In this document: positions 8,056 to 51,799 of the stretch, piece by piece | Position numbering within the stretch: the first letter of the stretch is position 1 | How the letters are laid out: each line of letters opens with the position of its first letter | Source of the DNA: Glycomyces arizonensis DSM 44726 | GTDB taxonomy: Bacteria; Actinomycetota; Actinomycetes; Mycobacteriales; Micromonosporaceae | DNA length: 64,000 bases | NCBI RefSeq assembly: GCF_000482705.1 | Contig: NZ_AXWO01000016.1 | Span: forward strand, 62,001-126,000 | Direction of reading: 5' to 3' | Position numbers and translations under genes: made by a program | Notes under the pieces: generated by a model | The model's input: only the letters and a program-made list of their open reading frames with translations | What the model was told of the DNA's origin: nothing | Databases searched by the model: none

Positions 8056-8455
8056 CGGACTTCGAACCACGCCGGCGGCGGCCCGACCGGGCCGCCGCCG
8101 GCGTTTTCGTCGTTCCCGCCCGAGCAGAGCGGAAGACGTTCGCCGCCGCCGCCCGAATGCGCACTCCGCCGCCTCGCGAATCGCCCCGAACGGGACGCCT
8201 CCGCCGTCCCGTCCGGACGTTCGGCGCCCCGGGCGACAGGCCGGACCGATCGGCCGTCTCCGCCGGTTGCGGTGCGGAAAGACCCGCTCTGGCGACGGCG
8301 CGGGACACCCGTGTGACGCGCGTGTAATTCGCTCAGCGGCCGATTGGCGCCTGGATCCGAACAGTTCCTGGAAAACTCGTCCGAATGGCCGATGGACATC
8401 CGAGAATCTATGGAAAGCCGGTATCGCCACACCCACCAGCGATCCAGGAGTAGCC
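8056..8455. other. Intergenic region without a gene
   Basis: Apart from the terminator at 8071-8107 I see nothing definable in these 400 bases. Open frames exist on both strands but their translations are Arg/Pro-rich and not protein-like. Confidence 0.6.
8071..8107 (+). terminator. Intrinsic terminator of the sugar ABC operon
   Basis: A 14-bp perfect GC-rich stem (8071-8084 with 8089-8102, loop GACC) followed by GTTTTCGTCGTT, 15 nt after the permease stop. Confidence 0.85.
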
Positions 8456-8692
8456 ATGAATCCCACCAATGGTGAGTTGCCAGAGGAATTCCGTCGGACC
8501 GCCACCGAGCCGGTGAGATCCGAGCCCGCGCCTGAGGAACCTGAGGCGCCCAGCAGCGAGGCGTCGCTCGAAGCCGAGACCCTCGGCAACGGCTGGCTGC
8601 TGCTGGGCATCTTCCTGCTCGTCACCATCGGCGTCCTGATGCTGCTCATCTTCGCTTCGGGCGGCAACGCCAACTCGTCGATGATGCTCTAG
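8456..8692 (+). CDS. Small single-pass membrane protein
   Basis: A 78-residue protein with an acidic, Pro/Glu-rich N-terminal half (to about residue 42), one strongly hydrophobic helix (GWLLLGIFLLVTIGVLMLLI, about residues 47-66) and a short polar tail. AGGAG lies 5 nt before the ATG, supporting this start over longer frames. I recognise no family. It stands between the importer terminator and ribF and could be a membrane-anchored accessory protein. Confidence 0.65.
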   Translation: MNPTNGELPEEFRRTATEPVRSEPAPEEPEAPSSEASLEAETLGNGWLLLGIFLLVTIGVLMLLIFASGGNANSSMML

Positions 8693-8757
8693 CGGCGGCG
8701 GCCACTGCGCCGGTCGTCCGCGGCCCGCGCCGGGCACGGCAGTGAGAAGATCGTGCC

Positions 8758-9696
8758 GTGGAAACCTGGCGTGGAATTGACGCGACGCCCGACCGCTGGC
8801 CCGCCTCGGTGGTCGCGATCGGCGTCTTCGACGGCGTGCACCGCGGTCACGCGGCCCTGATCCGGACCGCCGTCAAGGCCGCGGACGAACGCGGCGTCCG
8901 CAGCGTGGCCGTCACCTTCGACCCGCATCCGACGGCGGTGGTCGCGCCGCACGCGGTCCCCGCCCAGCTCACGAGCGTGGAACGGCGCGTCGCGCTGCTC
9001 GGCGCCCTCGGCGTCGACGGCGTGTGCGTCCTGCCGTTCACGGGGGACCTGTCCCGGCTCAGCCCGGAGTACTTCGTGCGCCACGTCGTGGTCGGCGGCC
9101 TGCACGCCGTCGGCGTCGTGGTCGGCGAGAACTTCCGCTTCGGCCACAAGGCCGCCGGAGACGTGAAGCTCTTGGCCGAACTCGGCCGGGAGTACGGCTT
9201 CGAGGTGCTCGCGCAGCCACTGACGGCCGACGCCGAAGCGTTCTCCTCGACGCGCGTGCGCGCCCGGATCGCCGAAGGCGACGTGGCCGCGGCCGCCGAG
9301 GTCCTCGGCCGCGACTTCGGCGTCGAAGGCACCGTCGTCCACGGCGCGGCGCGCGGCGCCGACCTCGGCTTCCCCACCGCCAACATCGCGACGGCACCGG
9401 GCTCGGCGATCCCCGCCGACGGCGTCTACACCGGGTGGCTCCACACCGGCTCGCATCGCCTGCCCGCATCGATCAGCGTCGGCACCAACCCCACCTTCGA
9501 CGGCGGCGAGCGCACCGTCGAGGCCCACCTCCTCGACTTTTCCGGCGACCTCTACGGCGAGGACGTCCGGCTCGACTTCGCCACGCGCCTGCGCGGCCAA
9601 GTCGCGTTCGACAACGTCGACGACCTGGTCGAACAGATCGAGACCGACGTCGCACAGACCCGTGCGGCCTTGGGCCTGGAGCAGCGGCGCTGGTAG
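8758..9696 (+). CDS. ribF: Bifunctional riboflavin kinase / FAD synthetase
   Basis: The 312-residue protein converts riboflavin to FMN and then FAD. The N-terminal nucleotidyltransferase domain carries IGVFDGVHRGHAAL (the HxGH-type site), FDPHP and ENFRFGHKAAGD; FSSTRVRARIAEGD ends that domain. The C-terminal kinase domain has GADLGFPTANI (PTAN motif), DGVYTGWL, SVGTNPTF and VEAHLLDFSGDLYGE. Length and domain order are normal. The start is GTG 8758. It leads the ribF-rpsO-pnp core segment, and its last codons overlap a candidate promoter for rpsO. Confidence 0.96.
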   Translation: METWRGIDATPDRWPASVVAIGVFDGVHRGHAALIRTAVKAADERGVRSVAVTFDPHPTAVVAPHAVPAQLTSVERRVALLGALGVDGVCVLPFTGDLSRLSPEYFVRHVVVGGLHAVGVVVGENFRFGHKAAGDVKLLAELGREYGFEVLAQPLTADAEAFSSTRVRARIAEGDVAAAAEVLGRDFGVEGTVVHGAARGADLGFPTANIATAPGSAIPADGVYTGWLHTGSHRLPASISVGTNPTFDGGERTVEAHLLDFSGDLYGEDVRLDFATRLRGQVAFDNVDDLVEQIETDVAQTRAALGLEQRRW

Positions 9697-9699
9697 AGT
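9670..9699 (+). promoter_or_regulatory. Candidate rpsO promoter
   Basis: TTGGGC (9670-9675) and TAGAGT (9694-9699) with an 18-nt spacer lie at the 3' end of ribF, about 95 nt before the rpsO start, giving a plausible separate promoter for rpsO-pnp. Confidence 0.45.
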
Positions 9700-9792
9700 G
9701 GCCCGGTCCGCGCGGCGCGCCGCCGGACCCGACCGGTCTGCACGACGCCGCGGACCCGGCCGGATCGAACCGACACTCAGAATTGAGGGATC

Positions 9793-10062
9793 ATGGCGCT
9801 CGAAGCCGACAAGAAGGCCGCGATCATCCAGGAGTACGCCACCCACGAGGGCGACTCGGGCTCGACCGAGGTCCAGGTGGCGCTGCTGACGGCCCGCATC
9901 AAGGAGCTCACCGCCCACGTCCAGGAGCACAAGCACGACCACCACTCGCGTCGCGGCCTGCTCCTCCTGGTCGGCAAGCGCCGCCGTCTGCTGAAGTACC
10001 TCCGCAACGAGGACATCACCCGCTACCGCGCGCTCATCGAGCGTCTCGGCATCCGCGGGTAG
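9793..10062 (+). CDS. rpsO: 30S ribosomal protein S15
   Basis: The 89-residue product is a full-length S15, which binds 16S rRNA in the platform of the small subunit. The family is clear from [17 protein letters not shown], the [22 protein letters not shown] block (rRNA-contacting His, Asp, Ser, Arg residues) and the end [19 protein letters not shown] precedes the ATG. It lies upstream of pnp as in many bacteria, separated from it by a long hairpin that may control pnp expression. Confidence 0.98.
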
Positions 10063-10395
10063 AGCGGACCGGATGCAACAAGGGATCGGCCCGCCCGTCC
10101 CCGGCTCGCGCCGGGCCGGGCGGGCCGATCCGCGTCCGCCCCGCCCCGCCGTCCGGTTTCCGTTCGCGGCTGCCGCCGCGCCCGCCGGATAACGTAGGGT
10201 GGACTGAGAGCATCAGCTCTGCCACAGTGCCTCCCGACGAGGCACGGCGCGGCTCGCCAGAGACCGCCGGTCCTCGGTAGTGGCACCCGGACCGTCCCAT
10301 CGCAGATCGGGACGCCGCTCCGTGTGCTTCGATCGAAGACCGGCCCCAGCATGGCAAGGCGCGCTCCGAACCACACATGAGGAGTCACACACTCA
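10063..10395. other. rpsO-pnp intergenic region
   Basis: These 333 bases contain the large hairpin at 10083-10131 and, further on, an AT-richer stretch around 10188-10200 (with TAGGGT at 10195-10200) that could hold a pnp promoter. No gene is seen. Confidence 0.6.
10083..10131 (+). promoter_or_regulatory. Long hairpin between rpsO and pnp
   Basis: Arms 10083-10097 and 10117-10131 pair perfectly (15 bp) and the enclosed sequence contains a further CCGG/CCGG helix. There is no T-run. In enterobacteria and Streptomyces the rpsO-pnp interval holds hairpins cut by RNase III; this one is in the same place, so it is either a terminator or an RNA-processing site. Confidence 0.65.
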
Positions 10396-12822
10396 ATGTC
10401 CGAAGCAACCCAACGGACGCCCGAGGCCTACAACCTCGGCGAGCACCACGCCACCGCCGTCATCGACAACGGCTCGTTCGGCACCCGGGAGATCGTCTTC
10501 TCCACCGGCCGCCTCGCCAAGCTCGCGCAGGGCTCGGCCATCGTCCAGATGGACGACACCGTGGTCCTGGCGACCACGGCCGCGTCGAAGAGCCCGAAGG
10601 AGCACTTCGACTTCTTCCCGCTGACCGTCGACATCGAGGAGCGGATGTACGCCGCCGGGCGCATCCCCGGCTCGTTCTTCCGCCGCGAAGGCCGCCCCAG
10701 CGAGAACGCGATCCTCACCTGCCGCCTGATCGACCGCGGCCTGCGCCCCTCCTTCGTGAGCGGCCTGCGCAACGAGGTCCAGGTCATCGGCACCATCCTC
10801 GCCGTCGACGAGCGCGACGAGTACGACGTGGTCGCCATGAACGGCGCCTCCATGTCCACCCAGCTCGCCGGGCTGCCGTTCTCCGGCCCGCTCGGCTCCA
10901 CCCGCGCCGTCCTCATCGGCGAGCAGTGGGTGTGCTTCCCGACGCTCGAGCAGATCGAGCAGGCCACCTTCGACATGGTCGTCACAGGGCGAGTGCTCGA
11001 CTCGGGCGACGTCGCGATCATGATGGTCGAGGCCGAGGCCACCGACAACACCGTCAAGCTCATCGACGGCGGCGCCACCAAGCCCACCGAGGAGGTCGTC
11101 GCCGGCGGCCTCGAAGCGGTCAAGCCGGTCATCGCCGAGCTGGTGCGCGCCCAGTCCGAACTCGCCGGCGTCGCCGCCAAGCCCGTCGCCGACTACCCGC
11201 GCTTCCCCGACTACCTCGATGACGCGTACGCCGCCGTCGAGTCGTCGGTCTCCGCGGAGCTCGACCAGGCGCTCCAGATCGCCGACAAGCAGGACCGCGG
11301 CACCGAGCTCGACCGCGTCAAGGCGGTCATGCTCGAGAAGCTCGGCGCGGACTTCGAAGGCCGCGAAGGCGAGCTGTCCGCCGCGCTGCGCTCGCTCACC
11401 AAGAAGCTGGTCCGGGGGCGCGTCATCGCCGAGGGCGTCCGCATCGACGGCCGCTCCCCGGTGGACATCCGGCCGCTGTCGGCCGAGGTCGGCATCCTGC
11501 CGCGCGTCCACGGCTCGGCGCTGTTCGAGCGCGGCGAGACCCAGATCATGGGCGTCACCACGCTGAACATGCTGCGCATGGAGCAGGCCATCGACACGCT
11601 GTCGCCGGTGACCAAGAAGCGCTACATGCACAACTACAACTTCCCGCCGTACTCGACCGGCGAGACCGGCCGCGTCGGCTCCCCGAAGCGCCGCGAGATC
11701 GGCCACGGCGCGCTCGCCGAGCGCGCCCTGGTCCCGGTCCTGCCGAGCCGCGAGGAGTTCCCGTACGCGATCCGGCAGGTCTCCGAGGCGCTCGGCTCGA
11801 ACGGCTCGACGTCGATGGGCTCGGTCTGCGCCTCGACGATGTCGCTCATGACCGCGGGCGTGCCGATCAAGGCCCCCGTCGCGGGCATCGCGATGGGCCT
11901 GATCAGCGAGGAGAGCGACGGCGAGACGAAGTACGTCACGCTCACCGACATCCTCGGCGCCGAGGACGCCTACGGCGACATGGACTTCAAGGTCGCCGGG
12001 ACGGCCGAGTTCGTCACCGCGCTCCAGCTGGACACCAAGCTCGACGGCCTCCCCTCGGAGGTCCTCGCGCAGGCCCTCCAGCAGGCCAACGACGCCCGCC
12101 ACGCGATCCTCGACGTCATGGCCGAGGCCATCGCCGAGGTCGGCGAGCTGGCCAGCACGGCCCCGCGGATCACCACGCTGAAGATCCCGGTCGACAAGAT
12201 CGGCGCGGTCATCGGCCCGAAGGGCCAGACGATCAACTCGATCACCGAGGAGACCGGCGCGGACGTCACCGTCGAGGACGACGGCACGATCTACGTCGCC
12301 GCCGAGAAGGGCTCGCAGGCCGAGGCCGCCGTCGAGATGATCAACGGCATCGCGAACCCGACCCTGCCGAACGTGGGGGACCGGTTCCTCGGCACCGTGG
12401 TCAAGACCACCGACTTCGGCGCGTTCATCTCGTTGGTGCCGGGCCGCGACGGCCTGCTGCACATCTCGAAGGTCGGCGACGGCAAGCGCGTCGACCGCGT
12501 CGAGGACGTGCTGGGCGTCGGCGACAAGATCGAGGTCGAGATCGGCGACATCGACAACCGCGGCAAGATCTACCTCGACAAGGTCTACCCGGAGGGCCAG
12601 GAGCCGGAGGGCTACAAGAAGGGCCGCCCCGAGCGCCGCGAGGGCGACCGCGGCGGACGCGGCGGCGACCGCGGCTCCCGCGGTGACCGCGGCCCGCGTC
12701 GCGACGGCGGCGGACGCCGCGGCGACGACGACCGGCCGCGTCGCTCGGACGACGACCACGGCGGCGAGCGCCGTCGCCGCCGGACCCGCCGCTCGGAGGA
12801 CTCCGGAGGCTCTGAAGAGTAG
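10396..12822 (+). CDS. pnp: Polynucleotide phosphorylase
   Basis: The 808-residue protein is a phosphate-dependent 3'-5' exoribonuclease and polymerase. Two RNase PH-like domains are separated by the all-helical linker; the second contains the [23 protein letters not shown] and [10 protein letters not shown]-type segments and the catalytic [14 protein letters not shown] region. A KH domain ([16 protein letters not shown], about residues 597-612) and an S1 domain (from [18 protein letters not shown]) follow. The C-terminus has a long Arg/Gly/Asp-rich tail (RGGDRG repeats from about residue 745), common in actinobacterial PNPases and likely RNA-binding or disordered. GAGGAG precedes the ATG by 11 nt. 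The M16 protease gene starts immediately after the stop. Confidence 0.97.
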
Positions 12823-16437: not shown

Positions 16438-16929
16438 GTGTGCGCAGTTGAGGAGGCGACCCTGGAGCGCCCGCGGAAGCGGCGCCCGAACGCGGTCGCG
16501 CGGTGGACGAACCACCTGTTCGCCCAGCCCTGGCTCGCGCCGGTGGCGGTGCTCGTCTGCTTCGCCGCGGCGGCGGGCGGGGTCGTGGCGACGAACCCGA
16601 CCGACAACACCGGGCCTTCGACGTGCCTGGTCAAGATGCTCACGGGCTTCGACTGCCCCGGCTGCGGCGGCACCCGCGCGTTCTACTACCTGCTGACGGC
16701 GAACCTGCCCGAGGCCGCCAGGCACCACGCCATGGCCGTCTTCGCCGCGCCGTTCCTCGTCTGGATGTACCTGTCGTGGGCGCTGCCCCGCGTGGCGCCG
16801 AAGGTGAGGTGGAGGCTGCCGACGTTCCACCTCACCCCGAACGTCCTGACGTCGTTCCTGATCGTCTGGGGCGTGTTCTTCCTGGCCCGCAACCTGCCGT
16901 GGGAGCCGTTCACGTACTTCTACGTCTAG
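16438..16929 (+). CDS. DUF2752 membrane protein
   Basis: The 163-residue protein carries the DUF2752 signature DCPGCGGTRAFYYLL (around residues 71-85; two Cys with Gly-Gly-Thr-Arg) between hydrophobic segments, with a basic N-terminus and about three to four membrane helices. The family has no known function; the CPGCG motif suggests metal binding or redox chemistry at the membrane face, which is inference. GGGAGG lies before the GTG start. The gene converges on the DUF4097 gene. Confidence 0.85.
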   Translation: MCAVEEATLERPRKRRPNAVARWTNHLFAQPWLAPVAVLVCFAAAAGGVVATNPTDNTGPSTCLVKMLTGFDCPGCGGTRAFYYLLTANLPEAARHHAMAVFAAPFLVWMYLSWALPRVAPKVRWRLPTFHLTPNVLTSFLIVWGVFFLARNLPWEPFTYFYV

Positions 16930-43339: not shown

Positions 43340-44440
43340 CTAGCAGCCGACGTCGAACGACGCCGCCGGGCCGGAGGCTATGAAGCCGAACACCTCCTTG
43401 CTCGTGCCCGCGTCGACGTGGGCGTTCCATTCCACGTCGGAGGCCGTGACGGTCGAGCCCGACTGCGATATGTCGACGTTCCAGGAACTGGAGAGCTGCT
43501 GGCCGCTCGGCCACTGCCACGACAGGTCCCAGCCGTCGACGGCCTGGTCGTCGGCGTGGATCGTCACCGAGCCCTGCCAGCCCGAGCCCCAGTCGTTGAC
43601 CACCGCGACGCTCGCCTGGCACGAGCCGGACGGCGGGTCGGTCGGGTCGTCGGGGTCCTCGGTCTCGTCGGGCGGATCGGTCGGCTCGGAGCTGCCGCCG
43701 CCGATGTCGAGCGAGTAGCTCTCGGTGCTGAACCGGTTCCCTCCGGCGGACGAGGTGATCTCGTAGCCGAACTGGATCTGGTCGATCCGCACGTCCGGCA
43801 TGCGCCCGGTCTCGTAGAGCCACTGGGCGATGTCGCTGATGCCGACCGTGGTCGAGGTCGTGTTGCCGCTGCGGACGAAGCTGTAGACCTCGTTGGCGCC
43901 GTTGTTGCCCCGGTAGTAGTCCCACGTGTGGCCGCCGACGGTCACGGTCGTCTCGTAGCTGCCGAGCGGCCCCACCGGGCCGACCTTCGCCAGCCAGATC
44001 ATGATCTCGTGCTCGTGACCGTTGCCCCACACGTCGTAGGTGGCGTTGTAGGCGACGCCGCTGCCGCCGCTCGGGGCCTCGAAGGTGACGCTGCTGTCCA
44101 CTTCGGGCATCTGGCTGACCTGCTCGCCGAGCGTGTAGGAGACGTTCGGGTAGCTCTTGATGCCTCCGGTGTTCGGGTGGTCGGCGTCGACCCACCAGTG
44201 CGACTGGTCGACCGCCGAGATCGTCTGGGTTCCGGCCCCGGAGCCCCAGATGTTGTTGTAGAGCGTGTAGTCGCCGAACATGGTGTTGCCCCACTGGTCG
44301 CTGGAGGTCCAGGTGGGGGAGGTGTGGTCGGCGTGCGCGGTGTAGGCCGTGGAGGCGGCCGAGACGGCCAGCGCCAGGGCCGCGAAGGCGCCCGTCACCG
44401 CGATCTTCCACGGTCGTCTCATGCGTGGTTGCTGTTTCAT
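43340..44440 (-). CDS. Secreted GH12 endoglucanase with CBM2
   Basis: The 366-residue product has a signal peptide (RRPWKIAVTGAFAALALAVSAASTAYTAHA), a family 12 glycoside hydrolase domain (about residues 35-255) and, after a Pro/Thr/Asp linker, a family 2 cellulose-binding module of about 100 residues starting CQASVAVVNDWGSGWQGSVTI and bounded by two Cys. The GH12 nucleophile is likely the Glu of EHEIMIWL and the acid/base that of QIQFGYEITSS. ATG 44440 is preceded by AAGGG. The enzyme would cut cellulose outside the cell and could feed the importer and GH1 enzyme encoded at 3-8 kb. Confidence 0.92.
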   Translation of the reverse strand: MKQQPRMRRPWKIAVTGAFAALALAVSAASTAYTAHADHTSPTWTSSDQWGNTMFGDYTLYNNIWGSGAGTQTISAVDQSHWWVDADHPNTGGIKSYPNVSYTLGEQVSQMPEVDSSVTFEAPSGGSGVAYNATYDVWGNGHEHEIMIWLAKVGPVGPLGSYETTVTVGGHTWDYYRGNNGANEVYSFVRSGNTTSTTVGISDIAQWLYETGRMPDVRIDQIQFGYEITSSAGGNRFSTESYSLDIGGGSSEPTDPPDETEDPDDPTDPPSGSCQASVAVVNDWGSGWQGSVTIHADDQAVDGWDLSWQWPSGQQLSSSWNVDISQSGSTVTASDVEWNAHVDAGTSKEVFGFIASGPAASFDVGC

Positions 44441-44528
44441 GTCGTGCCCTTGTGCTCGGGGCGGGAACGCGCGGATGCCGGGAACGACCGCCGCTGCCGC
44501 CGGGGAGGCCGACGCCGCCAATTAATAT

Positions 44529-44606: not shown

Positions 44607-45536
44607 CTAGAGCGGGGCGTCCGAGAGCCGCGCCGCCGACGAGGCCCGCACCGAGCGCAGCAGCAGCCGCGCGTCGCCGAGCCGGCGCTTGAGGCGCCGC
44701 TCCAGGCCCGCGATCGGCGTGAGGTTCTGCGGGGCCCGCGCGTCCTTGTGCGCGGCCGACCCCAACGGCGGCAGCGCCGCCGCGGTCGCGTCGGCGAGAG
44801 CGATCGCCGCCTCCTCACTCAGCGCGTCGGCCGCCTCGATCCGCGCCACGCCCGCCCAGCCGCGCGACCCGGCCCCCGGCAGTCGCAGGTACCACGAGTA
44901 GCGCGGCCACGTCGTCATCAGATAGAACACCGGCGTGCGCTGCCCCGGCCGCAGCCGCTCGACGACGCCGTTCAGCGGCCCCTGCAGATACGACCGGTGG
45001 TGGCTCTTGATGTAGCCCACCGCGTTCGGGAGCCTGGTCCGCCCGCGCAGCGTCCCGTCGAGCACGGACAGCTCGGCGTCCGCGGCGACGGCGGCGGCGA
45101 CCTTCGCCTCCAGCGCCGCCATCGCGACCTGGCTCGCGGCGATCAGCTCCGCCGAGTCGGCCGCGTCGGTCTTGCGGTACGGGTACTGCCCGAAGTCGGT
45201 GCCCGGGTCCAGCGGGGCGAACAGGCCGCGCTCGACGGACGACTCGATGACCGCCGAAGCCCCGCCGTCGAGGTCGCACACGACCGCACCGGCCGCCCAC
45301 GAGACGCACACGCCCGGCCAGCGGCCGGTCTCGTCGCTCAGCTCCACGCGCGCGTCCACGCGCCTGACGCCGTCGACCACCAGCAGCCGCCTCGGGCCCG
45401 AACTCGGCGCGTCGACCGGCATCCAGCCCTTGACCGGCATCTCGACCTCGGCGTTGACCGTGGCCGAGTCCGAGCGGGACGGCGACTCGGCGTTGTCCGC
45501 GAAGGACGGGTCCCACGCGTCGACGGTGATCTGCAC
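44607..45536 (-). CDS. nurA: NurA-like nuclease
   Basis: The 309-residue protein has the NurA motif order: LLVVDGVRRVDARV (Asp55-Gly56), SVLDGTLRG (Asp160-Gly161), AVGYIKSHHRSYL (Lys177), then PRYSWYLRLPG and WAGVARIEA near the end. In archaea NurA is a dimeric RNase H-fold nuclease that works with the HerA translocase and with Mre11-Rad50 to resect DNA ends. Here sbcC ends only 2 nt upstream, and sbcD and a HerA-like gene precede it in the same operon. GGAG of the sbcC end serves as Shine-Dalgarno for GTG 45536. Similarity is by motif pattern; activity is inferred. Confidence 0.78.
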   Translation of the reverse strand: MQITVDAWDPSFADNAESPSRSDSATVNAEVEMPVKGWMPVDAPSSGPRRLLVVDGVRRVDARVELSDETGRWPGVCVSWAAGAVVCDLDGGASAVIESSVERGLFAPLDPGTDFGQYPYRKTDAADSAELIAASQVAMAALEAKVAAAVAADAELSVLDGTLRGRTRLPNAVGYIKSHHRSYLQGPLNGVVERLRPGQRTPVFYLMTTWPRYSWYLRLPGAGSRGWAGVARIEAADALSEEAAIALADATAAALPPLGSAAHKDARAPQNLTPIAGLERRLKRRLGDARLLLRSVRASSAARLSDAPL

Positions 45537-45538
45537 GG

Positions 45539-47971
45539 CTACTCCATGGTCTTCTCGACGTGTGAACCCTTGGCGTCCTTGAGGATCCGGAACCGCACCG
45601 GCACGCGCTCGGCGAGGTCGGCGACGTGCGTGACCAGGCCGACCGTGCGCTCGCTGGAGACCGTCAGCGCCTCCAGCGTGCTGGCCACCGCGTCCAGCGT
45701 CTCGGGGTCGAGCGTGCCGAAGCCCTCGTCGAGGATGATCGACTCCAGGCACGCCCCGTCGCGCGAGAGGCTCGCCAGCTGGTCGGACAGCGCGAGCGCC
45801 AGCGACAGCGACGCGGCGAACGTCTCGCCGCCCGACAGGCTCCGCGCGGGGCGCGCCATGTCTGCGTCGTGGTGGTCGACCACCCAGAAGTCCTGGTCGC
45901 GGTAGATCAGGTCGTACTGGCCGCCGGTGATGCGGCTGAGCATCACCGTCGCCCCGGTCACGAGCTCGTCGAGCGCCTCGCTCAGCAGCCACTCCATGAA
46001 CCGGCGCGCCTCCAGATGCGTCGCAAGCGCCTTGGCGACCTCCGTCTCGCGGGCGTAGCGGCGCGTCTCGGCGTCGAGCTCGACGCGCTGGCGGCGGGCC
46101 TCGGCCAGCCGCTCGGCGGCCGCTCGGGCCGACTCGACGGCCGCGGCGTGCGCGGCCACGTAGTCGCCGCCGGTGCCCGTGCGCGGGACGGCGACGTCGA
46201 ACTCGGCCATCGCGCCGAGCAGTTCGGCCCGGAGCGTGGCGGCGCGCCCGTCGAGCGAGTCGAGCTCCTCGCGCGCGGCCCCGCGTTCGGCGGTGGCCCG
46301 TTCGAGCGCCCCGGCCGCCCAGTCGACGAGCCGCTGCCAGCTCTCGGCCAAGTCAGTGCCCGCCGCGGGCGGCCCGAGGACGGCCACCTGGTCCCGGGCG
46401 TGCCCGAACTCGCGCCACGCCCGCTGCTGCTGCTCTTCGGCCCCCGCCTTGCGCTTCTCGGCCTCCCGCAGGGCCCGGCGCGCGGCCTTGAGCGCCGCGG
46501 CGGTGCCGCCGAGCAGCTGCCTCGCCTCGGCGGCGGCTTCGCGGCGGCCTTGCAGCACACCGGCCTCGGGCACGTCCTTGAGCTTGTTCTCCAGGCGGCG
46601 GCGCTTGACGTCGAGCTCGGTCAGGCGCTCCTCGTAGCTGTCGAGGCGCGCCTGGAGGTTCACGACCGCGGCCTGCGCGTCCTTGTACTCGGCGGTGGCC
46701 GTCTGCGACGCCTGCTGGGCCTCCTCCAAGGCCGCCGAGAGGTCGCGCTCGGGGACGGCCTCCACGGGCCGGTCGCACACCGGGCAGTCCTCGCCGCCGA
46801 CCAGTTCGGCCCGCAGCGTCCCGGCCAGGTCCGCCATGCGGGCCTTGTGGACGGCCGCGTGCTGGATCTCGACCTCCTCGGCGGCGGCCCCTTCGAGCTC
46901 CTTGGCCTCGTCGTACTGGTGGCGCAGCTCCTCGGTCAGCTCGCGGCCGGTCTTCAGGCTCGTCTCGGTCTCACCGAGCTCCTCCCACGCCTTGAGCTGG
47001 CGTTCGATGAGCGCCAGATCGAGCCCGTCGAGTTCGGCGCGGAGCCGTTCGTCCTCGGCCTCGGTCGCCTCGACCTCGGCGGCCTTCGCCTTGACGCGCT
47101 CGGCCGCGTCGGCGACCTGCGCGGCGACGTCGTCGACGCCGCCGGGCCGCTTGATGTACGTCAGGGACGCCAGGTTCGCCTCGGCCTCGCTCGAACGCCT
47201 GCGGGCGGCCTCGGCGGCCGTGTCGAGCCCGTCGAGCGCACCGGCCTTGTCCCGCACCGACTCGGTGAGCTTCTCGAGCTTCTCGACCCGCAGCGCCGCC
47301 GCCGATATGTCCTCGTCGGACACCTGCGGGACCTTCTGCAGCTGCGCCTCCAGGGTCCGCTGCGCGGTGGCGGCGGCGTCGCGCCTGGCGCCCGCGAGCT
47401 GCTGGACGCGCCGGTAAGCGCTGTGCCCCAGGAGGTTCTCAAGAATCTTGCGCCGGTCGGCGGCGGTGGCGTGGAGGAACTCGGCGAACTCGCCCTGTGG
47501 CAAGAGCACGCACTTGGTGAACTGGTCGAACGGCAGCCCCACGATTCGCTCGGCGGCGGTGCTCACCGTCGACGGACTCCCGGCGAGCGCCCTGCCGAGG
47601 CCCTCGACCAGCTCGGTGTCGTCGGCCGGGTTCACCCCCTCGGGCAGCTGCTCCAGCGCGGCCATCGTGGTCTTGACGTTGCCGTTCTTGTCGCGGCGCA
47701 GGATCCTCGTGGCCACGTAGTGGACGCCCGCGGCGGCGAACACCAGCCGCACCCGGCCCTCCACCGCCGACGGCGCGATCGCGTGCTGCGTGGTGTTGTT
47801 GCGCCAGCGCGGCGTGCGCCCGTACAGCGCGAAGCACATCGCGTCGAGCACCGTGGACTTCCCGGCGCCGGTCGGCCCGGTGAGCGCGAAGAAGTCGACA
47901 TCGGTGAAGTCGAGCGTCGAGGCCTCGGTGTAGGAACCGAAGCCGTGCATGTCCAACCGGATCGGCCTCAT
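45539..47971 (-). CDS. sbcC: SbcC/Rad50-type SMC ATPase
   Basis: The 810-residue protein is the ATPase subunit of the SbcCD (Mre11-Rad50-type) nuclease. Walker A GPTGAGKST (residues 32-40) lies in the N-terminal ATPase half, and a Q-loop-type LLPQGEFAEFLHA follows. The coiled-coil arms are Ala/Glu-rich, shorter than in E. coli SbcC, and meet at the zinc hook CPVC (GGEDCPVCDRPVEAVP). The C-terminal half has the signature LSGGETFAASLSLALALSDQL and Walker B LESIILDEGFGTLD. The ATG overlaps the sbcD stop (ATGA). Confidence 0.96.
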   Translation of the reverse strand: MRPIRLDMHGFGSYTEASTLDFTDVDFFALTGPTGAGKSTVLDAMCFALYGRTPRWRNNTTQHAIAPSAVEGRVRLVFAAAGVHYVATRILRRDKNGNVKTTMAALEQLPEGVNPADDTELVEGLGRALAGSPSTVSTAAERIVGLPFDQFTKCVLLPQGEFAEFLHATAADRRKILENLLGHSAYRRVQQLAGARRDAAATAQRTLEAQLQKVPQVSDEDISAAALRVEKLEKLTESVRDKAGALDGLDTAAEAARRRSSEAEANLASLTYIKRPGGVDDVAAQVADAAERVKAKAAEVEATEAEDERLRAELDGLDLALIERQLKAWEELGETETSLKTGRELTEELRHQYDEAKELEGAAAEEVEIQHAAVHKARMADLAGTLRAELVGGEDCPVCDRPVEAVPERDLSAALEEAQQASQTATAEYKDAQAAVVNLQARLDSYEERLTELDVKRRRLENKLKDVPEAGVLQGRREAAAEARQLLGGTAAALKAARRALREAEKRKAGAEEQQQRAWREFGHARDQVAVLGPPAAGTDLAESWQRLVDWAAGALERATAERGAAREELDSLDGRAATLRAELLGAMAEFDVAVPRTGTGGDYVAAHAAAVESARAAAERLAEARRQRVELDAETRRYARETEVAKALATHLEARRFMEWLLSEALDELVTGATVMLSRITGGQYDLIYRDQDFWVVDHHDADMARPARSLSGGETFAASLSLALALSDQLASLSRDGACLESIILDEGFGTLDPETLDAVASTLEALTVSSERTVGLVTHVADLAERVPVRFRILKDAKGSHVEKTME

Positions 47972-49128
47972 GACGACTCCTCTGCCGCGACGGTCTGCGT
48001 CTCCTCGTACAGCTCGGCGAACAGCTTCGCCACCGCCGGGTCGTCGTGCCCGTTCTCGGCGAGGTAGGCGCCGAACAGCTCGCCGGGACTGCGCCCCGAG
48101 CGCCGCTGCCGCGGCGCGGCCGCGTCGGCGCGCATGACCGGGTCGATGTGGATCTGCACGGCACGCGGGAACAGGTCGGCGACCTCGCCGCGCAGCCCCG
48201 CCCTGGCCGGCTCGGTGACGAACACCCGCAGCCACGCCCGCTCGTCCACTTCGGCCTTGCCCAGCTCCGCGAGCGTGCCCCGCAGCGTCTTGAGCGGCAC
48301 CGCCGCGGTCAGCGGCACCTCCCGCACCCGCGCCGGAGTGTCCGCGGTGACGTCGACGATCGTGACGCTCGGCGCGTGGTCCTCCTCGCCGAAGTCCACC
48401 GCCAGCGGCCCGCCCGAGTACCGGATCGGGCACGGCCCCTCGATCTTCTGCGCCTTGTGCAGGTGCCCGAGCGCGACGTAGTTCGTCGAGGCCGGGAAGA
48501 CCGCCGCAGGGACCGCGTAGTCCGCGACAGTGTGGACCTCCCGCTCGCCCCCGCCGACCCTGCCGCCCACGACCGTCAGGTGCCCGCAGAACAGGTCCAC
48601 CTCGTCGCCGCTGAAGCCCTGCGAGAGCGCCGACACCATGCGCCGCAGGTGATCGGCGTAGGCCGACTCGGTGTCCGCCGTGCTCAGCTCGAACAGCTCG
48701 GCCGCCCGGACCGCGTACCGCTGGCTGACGAACGGCAGCGCCGCGAGCCGCCACCGCTCCCCGCTCGCCGTCTCGCCGGTGACGAGATGGTCGGCGGCCT
48801 TGCCGATGCGGCCCCGCAGGTGGATCCCGGCCGCGGCGGCCCACGCGCGCAGCGCTTCCAGCGCCGGTCCGTTGTCGTGGTTCCCGGCGATCGCCACCAC
48901 CTCGGCGCCCGTGCCGCGCAGCGCCGACAGCGTCGCCGTCAAGAGCTTCTGCGCGGCGCTCGAAGGCGAGGCCGTGTCGTACAGGTCCCCGGCCACGATC
49001 ACCAGGTCCACCTGCTCGGTGCGAGCCGTCTCGACGATCTGGCCGAACACGGCCCGCTGCTCGTCCAGCCGCGCCCGGCCCTTCAGCGTGACGCCGACGT
49101 GCCAGTCGGAGGTGTGCAGGATTCGCAA
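47968..49128 (-). CDS. sbcD: SbcD/Mre11-type nuclease
   Basis: The 386-residue metallophosphoesterase is the nuclease partner of SbcC. All phosphodiesterase motifs are present: TSDWHVG (Asp8, His10), AGDLYD (Asp48), AGNHD (Asn83, His84), and the later CGHLTV and ALGHLHKAQ His residues. The C-terminal part binds Rad50/SbcC. The start codon is TTG 49128: the sequence TAGGAG, made of the HerA stop and a Shine-Dalgarno, stands 6 nt before it. Translation is coupled to herA upstream and sbcC downstream. Confidence 0.95.
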   Translation of the reverse strand: MRILHTSDWHVGVTLKGRARLDEQRAVFGQIVETARTEQVDLVIVAGDLYDTASPSSAAQKLLTATLSALRGTGAEVVAIAGNHDNGPALEALRAWAAAAGIHLRGRIGKAADHLVTGETASGERWRLAALPFVSQRYAVRAAELFELSTADTESAYADHLRRMVSALSQGFSGDEVDLFCGHLTVVGGRVGGGEREVHTVADYAVPAAVFPASTNYVALGHLHKAQKIEGPCPIRYSGGPLAVDFGEEDHAPSVTIVDVTADTPARVREVPLTAAVPLKTLRGTLAELGKAEVDERAWLRVFVTEPARAGLRGEVADLFPRAVQIHIDPVMRADAAAPRQRRSGRSPGELFGAYLAENGHDDPAVAKLFAELYEETQTVAAEESS

Positions 49129-49137
49129 GGCGGGCTC

Positions 49138-50859
<1,722 letters not shown>

Positions 50860-50864
50860 GCGAC

Positions 50865-51596
50865 TCATCCTCTCAGGTATCGCAAGATGAGGTTGCCTTC
50901 GGCTTCGATGACGTGTCGCAGCCGCAGCCGACGGGCCGCCTCGGACGCCCGCCCTTCGGCGGCCCGGATCGGGCCCGCGCCCACCAGCAGCGGCGACACC
51001 GTCAAACACAGCTCGTCGACCAGGTCGGCGGCGATCAGCTCGCCGAAGACCCGCGGCCCGCCCTCGCACAGGACCTGCCGCAGCCCCCGCTCGCGCAGGA
51101 CCCCGAGCGCGGCGCGGTAGTCGATCTCGCCGTGGCCGACCGCGACGACGTCCGCGATCTCCCGCAGCGACTCCATGTGGCCCACGGCGGCGTCGGCCGC
51201 GCAGATCACGATCGGTCGGCGCGGCGCCTGCTCGAACAGCCCCGACTCGGGGTCGAGCCGGGCCGACCGCGACGCCACCGCCATCACCGGCTCCTCGGGA
51301 AGCCCCCGCTCGGATCGCCAGGCCACCCGTTCGGGGCTCAGCGTCAGCGGTCCGTATCCTTCGGCGAGCACCGTCCCGGACCCGGCCAGCAGCACGTCGC
51401 AGCCGGCCCGCAGCACCTTGAAGACCCGCTTGTCGGCCTCTCCGGACAGTGGGCCCGACAGGCCCTCCAAAGTGGCCGCGCCGTCGGCGCTGGTCACGAA
51501 GTTCACGCGCAGCCAATCCTCCTCCGGAGGCGCGTACGCGTCGTAGAGTTCGGCCTCGCTCAGCTCATCGAGCCTCAGAAACTGCACATCTGGCAC
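50865..51596 (-). CDS. RibD C-terminal-type (pyrimidine) reductase
   Basis: The 243-residue protein belongs to the RibD_C/DHFR-like reductase family: VNFVTSADGAATLEG, FKVLRAGCDVLLAGSGTV, LCEGGPRVFGELIAADLVDELCLTVSPLLVG are its blocks. RibD_C reduces the ribosyl side chain of the riboflavin precursor, but the deaminase half is absent, so this may be a separate reductase or a paralogue. It lies 5 nt upstream of herA and is likely the first gene of the operon, though its link to DNA repair is not obvious. GTG 51596 was chosen because TAGGTT lies 6 nt upstream; GTG 51602 is also in frame. Confidence 0.85.
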   Translation of the reverse strand: MPDVQFLRLDELSEAELYDAYAPPEEDWLRVNFVTSADGAATLEGLSGPLSGEADKRVFKVLRAGCDVLLAGSGTVLAEGYGPLTLSPERVAWRSERGLPEEPVMAVASRSARLDPESGLFEQAPRRPIVICAADAAVGHMESLREIADVVAVGHGEIDYRAALGVLRERGLRQVLCEGGPRVFGELIAADLVDELCLTVSPLLVGAGPIRAAEGRASEAARRLRLRHVIEAEGNLILRYLRG

Positions 51597-51799
51597 GGCC
51601 ACAACCTAACCCATGGGCCCGACAAAGCAAGGCACCCGTCGCCCGCGGCCTGTCCCGCGAATCCGGTGAATCGGCCGAGTCGGATATCCGTCAGCGCTGA
51701 ACGACGTGAACCGCGACCGGCCCATCGCGGCGAATCTACGATTCTCCACGTTGCGCTCAGGAACCACCGCATGCCGCGAACCGAACACAGGAGACAGCG

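Follow-up and report, generated by a model that had tools for sequence, protein, structure and literature searches.

A linked herA-sbcD-sbcC-nurA gene set in Glycomyces arizonensis points to a probable bacterial HerA-NurA-SbcCD cassette for DNA-end processing

We analysed a stretch of 64,000 nucleotides (nt) from Glycomyces arizonensis DSM 44726 (NZ_AXWO01000016.1, positions 62,001-126,000; hereafter the window, in whose numbering all positions are given), in which herA, sbcD, sbcC and nurA follow one another on the minus strand. We find that the four genes are kept together across several bacterial phyla, and that they probably encode a bacterial HerA-NurA-SbcCD cassette for DNA-end processing. 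Reading of the open reading frames (ORFs) places five co-directional genes between 44607 and 51602, in the order RibD-like gene, herA, sbcD, sbcC and nurA. The herA gene (49138-50859) encodes a HerA/FtsK-type translocase of 573 amino acids (aa), sbcD (47968-49128, TTG start) an Mre11-type phosphoesterase of 386 aa, sbcC (45539-47971) a Rad50-type ABC ATPase of 810 aa, and nurA (44607-45536, GTG start) a NurA nuclease of 309 aa. The junctions are tight, with gaps of 5 nt between RibD and HerA, 9 nt between HerA and SbcD and 2 nt between SbcC and NurA, and a 4-nt ATGA overlap between SbcD and SbcC. A first-pass annotation made from the sequence had described these genes as a HAS-barrel HerA ATPase, an Mre11-type nuclease, a Rad50-type ATPase with a CPVC hook and a protein with NurA motif order, and its identities, coordinates and junctions are borne out by the searches described below.

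HerA matches HerA of Deinococcus radiodurans (drHerA; PDB 7f6d_B) over residues 2-550 in a phmmer search (expect value, E=1.8e-138), a full-length match that confirms it as a HAS-barrel protein with a RecA-like ATPase. Profiles A1, A2 and A3 were built from 53, 26 and 31 chosen rows, and the 26-row HerA profile reaches the Deinococcus protein at E 5e-196. The next solved relatives are HerA or DUF87 ATPases at E 1e-5 or weaker, and archaeal HerA is absent from the matches to solved structures at E<=0.01. All residue equivalences given here are hand counts on the 7f6d alignments, with numbering from PMC9960219. By this count, drHerA K175, D220, D487, E488, R495 and R552 are kept as K164, D199, D426, E427, R434 and R491, so that Walker A, Walker B and the pore arginines (R495 and R552 in drHerA) of the Deinococcus NurA-HerA type are all present. 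The Walker A Lys164 lies at 50368-50370 and the Walker B pair Asp426-Glu427 at 49579-49584, both on the minus strand. Most P-loops carry a glycine, not a threonine, before the lysine. The window protein has the variant loop GISGVATKT, which is identical in drHerA; TKT is found in 81/81 called HerA proteins and the exact nine-residue loop in 47/81.

NurA is recognised as a single sequence by D. radiodurans NurA (drNurA; 7f6d_H) at E=2e-19. The profile search that the first-pass annotation had proposed as a check confirms its NurA assignment: the 53-row profile reaches 7f6d_H at E 4.6e-57 and 1zup (TM1739), a Thermotoga protein termed a bacterial NurA (PMC9960219), at E 6e-21. The catalytic residues of drNurA are all present. 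D53 corresponds to Asp55 (45372-45374), K201 to Lys177 (45006-45008) and R309 to Arg267 (44736-44738), all on the minus strand and each found in 53/53 rows. Starting the protein at the GTG at 45536 puts a tryptophan at position 8, as in drNurA, where the W8A change is reported to lower resection efficiency (PMC9960219); W8 is found in 51/53 relatives. In the Deinococcus type of complex, an N-terminal tryptophan and a pin split the duplex. An AlphaFold2 model of NurA has a predicted local distance difference test score (pLDDT) of 93.1 and a predicted template modelling score (pTM) of 0.89, with the lowest confidence at residues 11-20. The Pfam NurA family matches the protein at E 0.014 and 15.3 bits, under its cut-off of 21. 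HerA has no Pfam match at E<=1, and neither HerA nor NurA has an NCBIfam match at E<=0.01. The set is missed by annotation because HerA is without a Pfam or NCBIfam name and NurA stays below the cut-off.

SbcD passes the TIGR00619 cut-off (177 bits against 77.65). Its Mre11 motif residues (D8, H10, D48, N83, H84, H183, H222 and H224) are invariant in 31 rows, and among solved structures its profile is closest to SbcD of the Escherichia coli type. SbcC scores 253 bits (E 4e-75) against TIGR00618, below the cut-off of 478.5 for a model that spans 1043 positions to the protein's 810 aa. It contains Walker A, the signature SLSGGE, Walker B and a zinc hook, CPVC, at residues 396-399 (46775-46786, minus strand); CPxC occurs in 68/70 SbcC proteins and CPVC in 65/70. 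The phosphoesterase motifs of SbcD and the ABC motifs and hook of SbcC are all present, and the two belong to the same families as stand-alone SbcCD of the E. coli and Streptomyces type.

We surveyed loci chosen by a HerA match in order to learn how firmly the four genes are linked. The HerA query matches in 70/198 Actinomycetota genomes, which we divided into 46 with this HerA family (the source genome included), 17 with a distant form (family f16) and 7 with short FtsK/HerA-like proteins. The NurA profile finds a strong NurA in 45/46 strong-HerA genomes and in 0/152 others, where weak matches occur in 7/17 f16 genomes and in one further genome (8 of the 152); in the single strong-HerA genome without a NurA match (G070) HerA is close to the end of its contig. 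We read the gene order of 48 Actinomycetota loci (the window, 45 strong and 2/17 f16). All four genes share one strand of a stretch no longer than 19.5 kb in 41 of the 48; contig ends cut five loci, and in G051 and G075 sbcD-sbcC-nurA lies 14 and 11 kb downstream of herA. These counts confirm that herA and nurA are usually linked to sbcCD in the loci examined, a point for which the first-pass annotation had asked for a gene-order survey. In the same class outside the family of the source genome (its own family, GTDB Micromonosporaceae), 14 genomes have a strong HerA, and the 13 loci read, leaving out G392 on a partial contig, contain all four genes (13/13). Within the own family HerA is found in 61/61 genomes; gene order was read in 20/60 relatives, 19/20 of which have all four genes and the last a gap of about 9-10 kb. 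The three loci in these groups in which herA stands alone away from contig ends (L072, L074 and L139; L and G numbers are our labels for loci and genomes) carry sbcD-sbcC-nurA further along the same strand, about 9-14 kb downstream, and we therefore rejected the reading of herA as unlinked there.

The set extends beyond the Actinomycetota loci above. A species-genome scan with an actinobacterial HerA (L104) as first row gave 579 matches, the best 80 of which, leaning to Acidimicrobiia, were followed up as named loci; most are metagenome-assembled genomes, in which stray contigs are possible. These best 80 of 579 come from Acidimicrobiia, Thermoleophilia, Streptosporangium, Chloroflexota, Gemmatimonadota and records labelled as other phyla; 60 contain all four genes on one strand, and 13 run into a contig end. 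For the single loci assigned to Pseudomonadota or Bacteroidota, misbinning of the contig may be the explanation. Where two of the genes are neighbours, they are mostly within 300 nt of each other: herA/sbcD in 127/145 cases, sbcD/sbcC in 138/139, sbcC/nurA in 59/64 and nurA/herA in 82/83. No fifth component was recognised between herA and sbcD, and no insert gene occurs there in more than two loci (crude ORF picks). Two loci of the same genus (L129 and L130) have a gene of about 281 aa between sbcC and nurA; the window has no such gene. Divergent forms were also seen. Family f16 (L114 and L115; genomes of about 3-4.6 Mb) has a very divergent nurA-herA-sbcD-sbcC set whose HerA is 27-34% identical, and one genome carries a second divergent cassette beside a normal one (G146:C15:13746-17286), with HerA 29% identical, SbcD at 146 bits and a weak NurA.

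Two gene orders occur, herA-sbcD-sbcC-nurA and nurA-herA-sbcD-sbcC. We compared trees of the four proteins for 39 loci, hand-picked for spread out of 162 HerA extracted and run with a quick tree method. Tree-distance correlations among the four proteins are 0.71-0.90, the highest value in 500 label shuffles being 0.39, and 20/36 splits are common to all four trees. One branch parts the two gene orders in every tree; its support is 44 for HerA and 100 for the other three. In each of the four trees a locus titled Chloroflexi (L174) is nested in an Acidimicrobiia group (support 97-100), a placement that transfer of the whole set, or misbinning of the contig, would produce. Part of this agreement reflects common descent of the genomes, since the trees hold no neutral marker gene. 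Together with the linkage survey, the largely agreeing trees fit inheritance as one unit and lend support to the earlier proposal of a single co-inherited set.

The SbcCD of the set also differs from most stand-alone SbcCD. In a quick tree of 65 SbcD rows, hand-picked for spread out of 168 extracted, 17/20 stand-alone SbcD form one clade on a long branch (support 100) that excludes the HerA-linked SbcD of several phyla; the tree has no archaeal root, and we use it for separation and not for origin. SbcD of the f16 loci L114 and L115 is very divergent in this tree. Cassette SbcC is usually shorter than its stand-alone counterpart: 60/70 are at most 851 aa and the other ten are 989-1178 aa, whereas uncut matches of the stand-alone clade are about 930-1130 aa. 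The remaining three stand-alone SbcD rows (L264, L265 and L266) are placed among the linked SbcD, which reads, from tree position, as a loss of herA and nurA, though L265 ends at a contig end. The L266 region (G182:C18:115000-134000, from a 9.9 Mb, probably Streptomyces-like genome of the same class), in which herA or nurA was not found, holds cassette-type sbcD-sbcC with genes for an M78/IrrE peptidase, DUF2397 and DUF2398.

Alternatively, one transcript might encode two independent machines, with SbcCD cleaving hairpin or blocked ends, HerA-NurA doing something else, and the linkage giving co-regulation or balanced dosage. Separable parts do exist: in L221, L223 and L224 a stretch of 5.9-10 kb holds nurA-herA but no sbcCD, SbcCD stands alone in many genomes, and cassette-type SbcCD is without a detectable HerA or NurA over 18-19 kb in L264 and L266, with L265 cut by the contig end. 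Against this, the trees of all four proteins are shared across phyla, gene order switches while content rarely does, and cassette SbcD falls outside the main stand-alone clade. Further, a non-cassette SbcD above 100 bits is found in 1/46 HerA genomes (G183) and in 37/152 others, a count made without G039, G143 and the divergent second copy in G146 and one that may miss second copies, because the best few candidates per genome were scored with a profile built from cassette SbcD that under-scores stand-alone ones. We consider two separate machines unlikely.

We favour instead a single cassette, in which SbcCD (Mre11-Rad50) would bind a broken or blocked end and clear or nick it. A HerA hexamer would then load on the end and pump duplex into a NurA dimer, which would split the strands and cut the 5' strand for the most part, so that a 3' tail would remain for RecA. 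Opening of hairpin or blocked ends is an activity of Mre11-Rad50 enzymes. The four proteins, encoded together and inherited as one unit, would act alongside AdnAB, perhaps taking the ends that AdnAB processes poorly. We infer both that SbcCD hands the end over to HerA-NurA and that the cassette shares the work with AdnAB; the handover is the simplest reading of one inherited unit. The residues needed for drNurA-HerA activity are present, which supports end processing. In vitro, drNurA-HerA is reported to feed a NurA dimer by ATP-driven translocation of double-stranded DNA, with cutting of the 5' strand (PMC9960219). In Sulfolobus all four operon genes are described as essential, and HerA-NurA 5'-3' activity as needed (PMC4351679), and in Thermus loss of the HerA homologue is reported to affect ultraviolet (UV) resistance severely (PMC5448004).

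Several observations weigh against this reading. The literature is divided, with essential resection in Sulfolobus set against mild Deinococcus deletions and the doubts raised for Thermococcus in 2026: deletions of drHerA or NurA in D. radiodurans or Thermus thermophilus are summarised as giving modest or improved damage resistance (PMC9960219), a summary that stands in dispute with the Thermus UV result (PMC5448004), and HerA-NurA of Thermococcus kodakarensis is reported to cut both strands, its authors doubting resection and suggesting an antiviral role (PMC12977600). In the survey, seven of the named loci (L189, L191, L208, L217, L221, L223 and L224) have 2.3-10 kb of free sequence in which HerA or NurA-HerA occurs without the rest. 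The HerA gene is fragmented in G114 and interrupted by an internal TGA in G167, by decay or sequencing error, and the members of the own family form a clade for HerA, SbcD and SbcC but not for NurA. The source genome already has an AdnAB-like pair, two adjacent overlapping genes each with a UvrD helicase and a PDDEXK_1 nuclease (L229:5176-8235 and 8207-11308), which we take to be the architecture of AdnA and AdnB. Finally, a LexA-like box (GAAC-N4-GTTC) is absent from the window and is found in 2/171 stretches upstream of herA, nurA or ribD in relatives, many of these genes not being first in the set.

These last two points bear on the role and control of the set. The first-pass annotation had contrasted it with the usual bacterial resection enzymes, RecBCD, AddAB or AdnAB; as a replacement for them it does not hold for the source genome, where the AdnAB-like tandem led us to reject it. 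It is also unlikely in the 45/46 HerA genomes of the Actinomycetota draw with a PDDEXK_1 match (PF12705, a loose proxy that is not AdnAB-specific). In f16, where PDDEXK_1 matches are mostly weak and absent in 4/17, the four-gene set might be the main resection enzyme. SOS control was rejected, as the window lacks a GAAC-N4-GTTC box; a looser match with 5-nt spacing lies at 16508, far from the set.

We also asked if the set might be a genome-defence nuclease, in which HerA-NurA and SbcCD would degrade the DNA of phages or plasmids in the manner of HerA with its SIR2 or DUF4297 partners. A defence role has been proposed for archaeal HerA-NurA (PMC12977600), and the set does occur on mobile DNA. 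On a linear plasmid of Streptomyces sp. BB1-1-1 (L284, NZ_CP134205.1 413745-429364), in a record that calls HerA just "ATP-binding protein" and NurA hypothetical, herA-sbcD-sbcC-nurA lies beside genes for an ImmA/IrrE metallopeptidase and TIGR02680, TIGR02678 and DUF2397, the last three of which we presume to be Wadjet-like. A cyanobacterial conjugative plasmid (L286, AP018315.1) carries nurA-herA-sbcD-sbcC; a third plasmid-labelled record with the set is 11.85 Mb and thus chromosome-sized. PADLOC models of other ATPases match HerA (mad8, E 6e-10) and SbcC (mad3, 5e-29; LmuB, 4e-27), and a scan of 89 flanking ORFs gave single matches to SngB, PDC-M03B and BrxD. However, the PADLOC HerA models match HerA at E 9e-6 at best (to 1e-3), none matches NurA, and a scan of 15 window proteins found no SIR2 or DUF4297 domain. 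Across the 89 flanking ORFs scanned (of 177 listed), two ORFs is the highest count that any one PADLOC model reaches at E<=1e-10; the models with that count are mainly Cas12f-type, fitting IS605 OrfB transposase hits in Pfam. A defence island was rejected, since the neighbours are mixed and mostly metabolic, with no consistent defence genes (25 of 114 Pfam families listed). Presence of HerA in every own-family genome is also unlike the usual patchy pattern of defence systems. A defence function is, in our judgement, decidedly unlikely.

An archaeal origin of the set is very improbable: the same four functions are likewise clustered in archaea (PMC4351679, PMC12977600), and the GC content of the region (0.72-0.73) slightly exceeds that of the rest of the window (0.66-0.71), which says little, but the closest solved relatives of HerA, NurA and SbcD in profile searches are bacterial and the set is widely spread in several bacterial phyla. 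The label "archaeal-type" in the first-pass annotation is therefore not supported at sequence level, where no archaeal HerA is matched at E<=0.01.

Comparison with described systems suggests a well-kept bacterial version of a known machine, for which the linkage is confirmed and the interpretation partly supported. As in the archaeal herA-mre11-rad50-nurA operon of Sulfolobus and Thermococcus, the four functions form one co-directional cluster; in contrast to it, the window sequences are nearest to bacterial families, SbcD and SbcC replace archaeal Mre11 and Rad50, and an AdnAB-like enzyme is also encoded. The drNurA-HerA complex (PDB 7f6d; PMC9960219) shares with the window its HerA and NurA families, its catalytic and translocation residues and the GISGVATKT loop. 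That complex is a HerA6:NurA2 assembly with ATP-dependent 5' resection, as would be expected of the window proteins. The ionic interface is partly kept. On the HerA side, drHerA D78 is D68 in 26/26 rows and the positions of E80 and D81 (70 and 71) vary; on the NurA side, where the drNurA residues are K299, K303, H305 and K306, H263 and K264 are found in 25/53 and 28/53 rows and the equivalents of drNurA K299 and K303 are changed in the window protein. Deinococcus-Thermus is described as having a two-gene herA-nurA operon (PMC12977600), while the window has sbcD and sbcC in the same gene unit.

A bacterial precedent is Oceanithermus profundus, whose sbcD and sbcC were reported in a 2017 paper on Thermus to lie downstream of hepA (herA); its authors noted the likeness to archaea and presented it as one case of recruitment (PMC5448004). 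In our survey almost every Actinomycetota locus examined shows the linkage, as do loci of other phyla. Presence in Actinobacteria is already in print, and published work also names D. radiodurans (PMC8708640). A search of the open literature by titles and abstract openings, with most subscription papers outside it, returned no work that treats this four-gene set in Actinomycetota. Bacterial neighbourhoods may be discussed in the study of the FtsK-HerA superfamily by Iyer and others (2004). Presence and linkage are thus not new; for the breadth, the inheritance as a unit and the separate SbcCD, we found no account in the open literature searched.

Tentatively, and with a little less than even confidence, we propose that the set represents a second dedicated bacterial Mre11-Rad50 lineage, in which a mostly short SbcCD would be bound to HerA-NurA as one four-protein end-resection machine. 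This machine would pass from phylum to phylum as a block, would largely exclude the stand-alone SbcCD and, in mesophilic Actinomycetota, would act alongside AdnAB. If this is true, the archaeal arrangement would be one branch of a wider prokaryotic machine and not a speciality of thermophiles. The bacterial HerA-NurA experiments that we found in the literature come from Deinococcus-Thermus. A tightly kept gene unit in many bacteria would make the disputed job of HerA-NurA testable in ordinary soil bacteria, and its presence in all sampled genomes of one actinobacterial family, with an AdnAB-like pair in the source genome, could permit clean genetics of break repair.

The fifth gene, directly upstream of herA (50865-51602, minus strand), encodes a RibD-type pyrimidine reductase (RibD_C E 5e-31, Pfam); the end at 51596 given by the first-pass annotation is an alternative GTG start, and the longer call ends at 51602. 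It had been put forward as an unexplained partner of the machine, which we rejected since its linkage is nearly limited to the own family. There it is upstream and co-directional in 17/20 loci, reversed in one and not found in two, with gaps to the set from a few nt to 1.45 kb. It was detected in 0/60 loci outside the family (tblastn, at least 40 bits, some contigs being short) and in one of the best 80 of 579 named loci, L208, which is titled Micromonosporaceae. Judged by this distribution, the RibD-like gene is a lineage-specific neighbour and probably not a part of the machine, and it may share a promoter with the set.

Two other features adjoin or overlap the genes. Directly downstream of nurA, on the same strand and after an 85-nt gap, lies a cellulase-type gene with GH12 and CBM2 domains (43340-44521). 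Opposite the operon, the plus strand at 48046-51120 has open frames of up to 1024 aa, which are likely a GC-rich shadow of the operon genes and not a gene.

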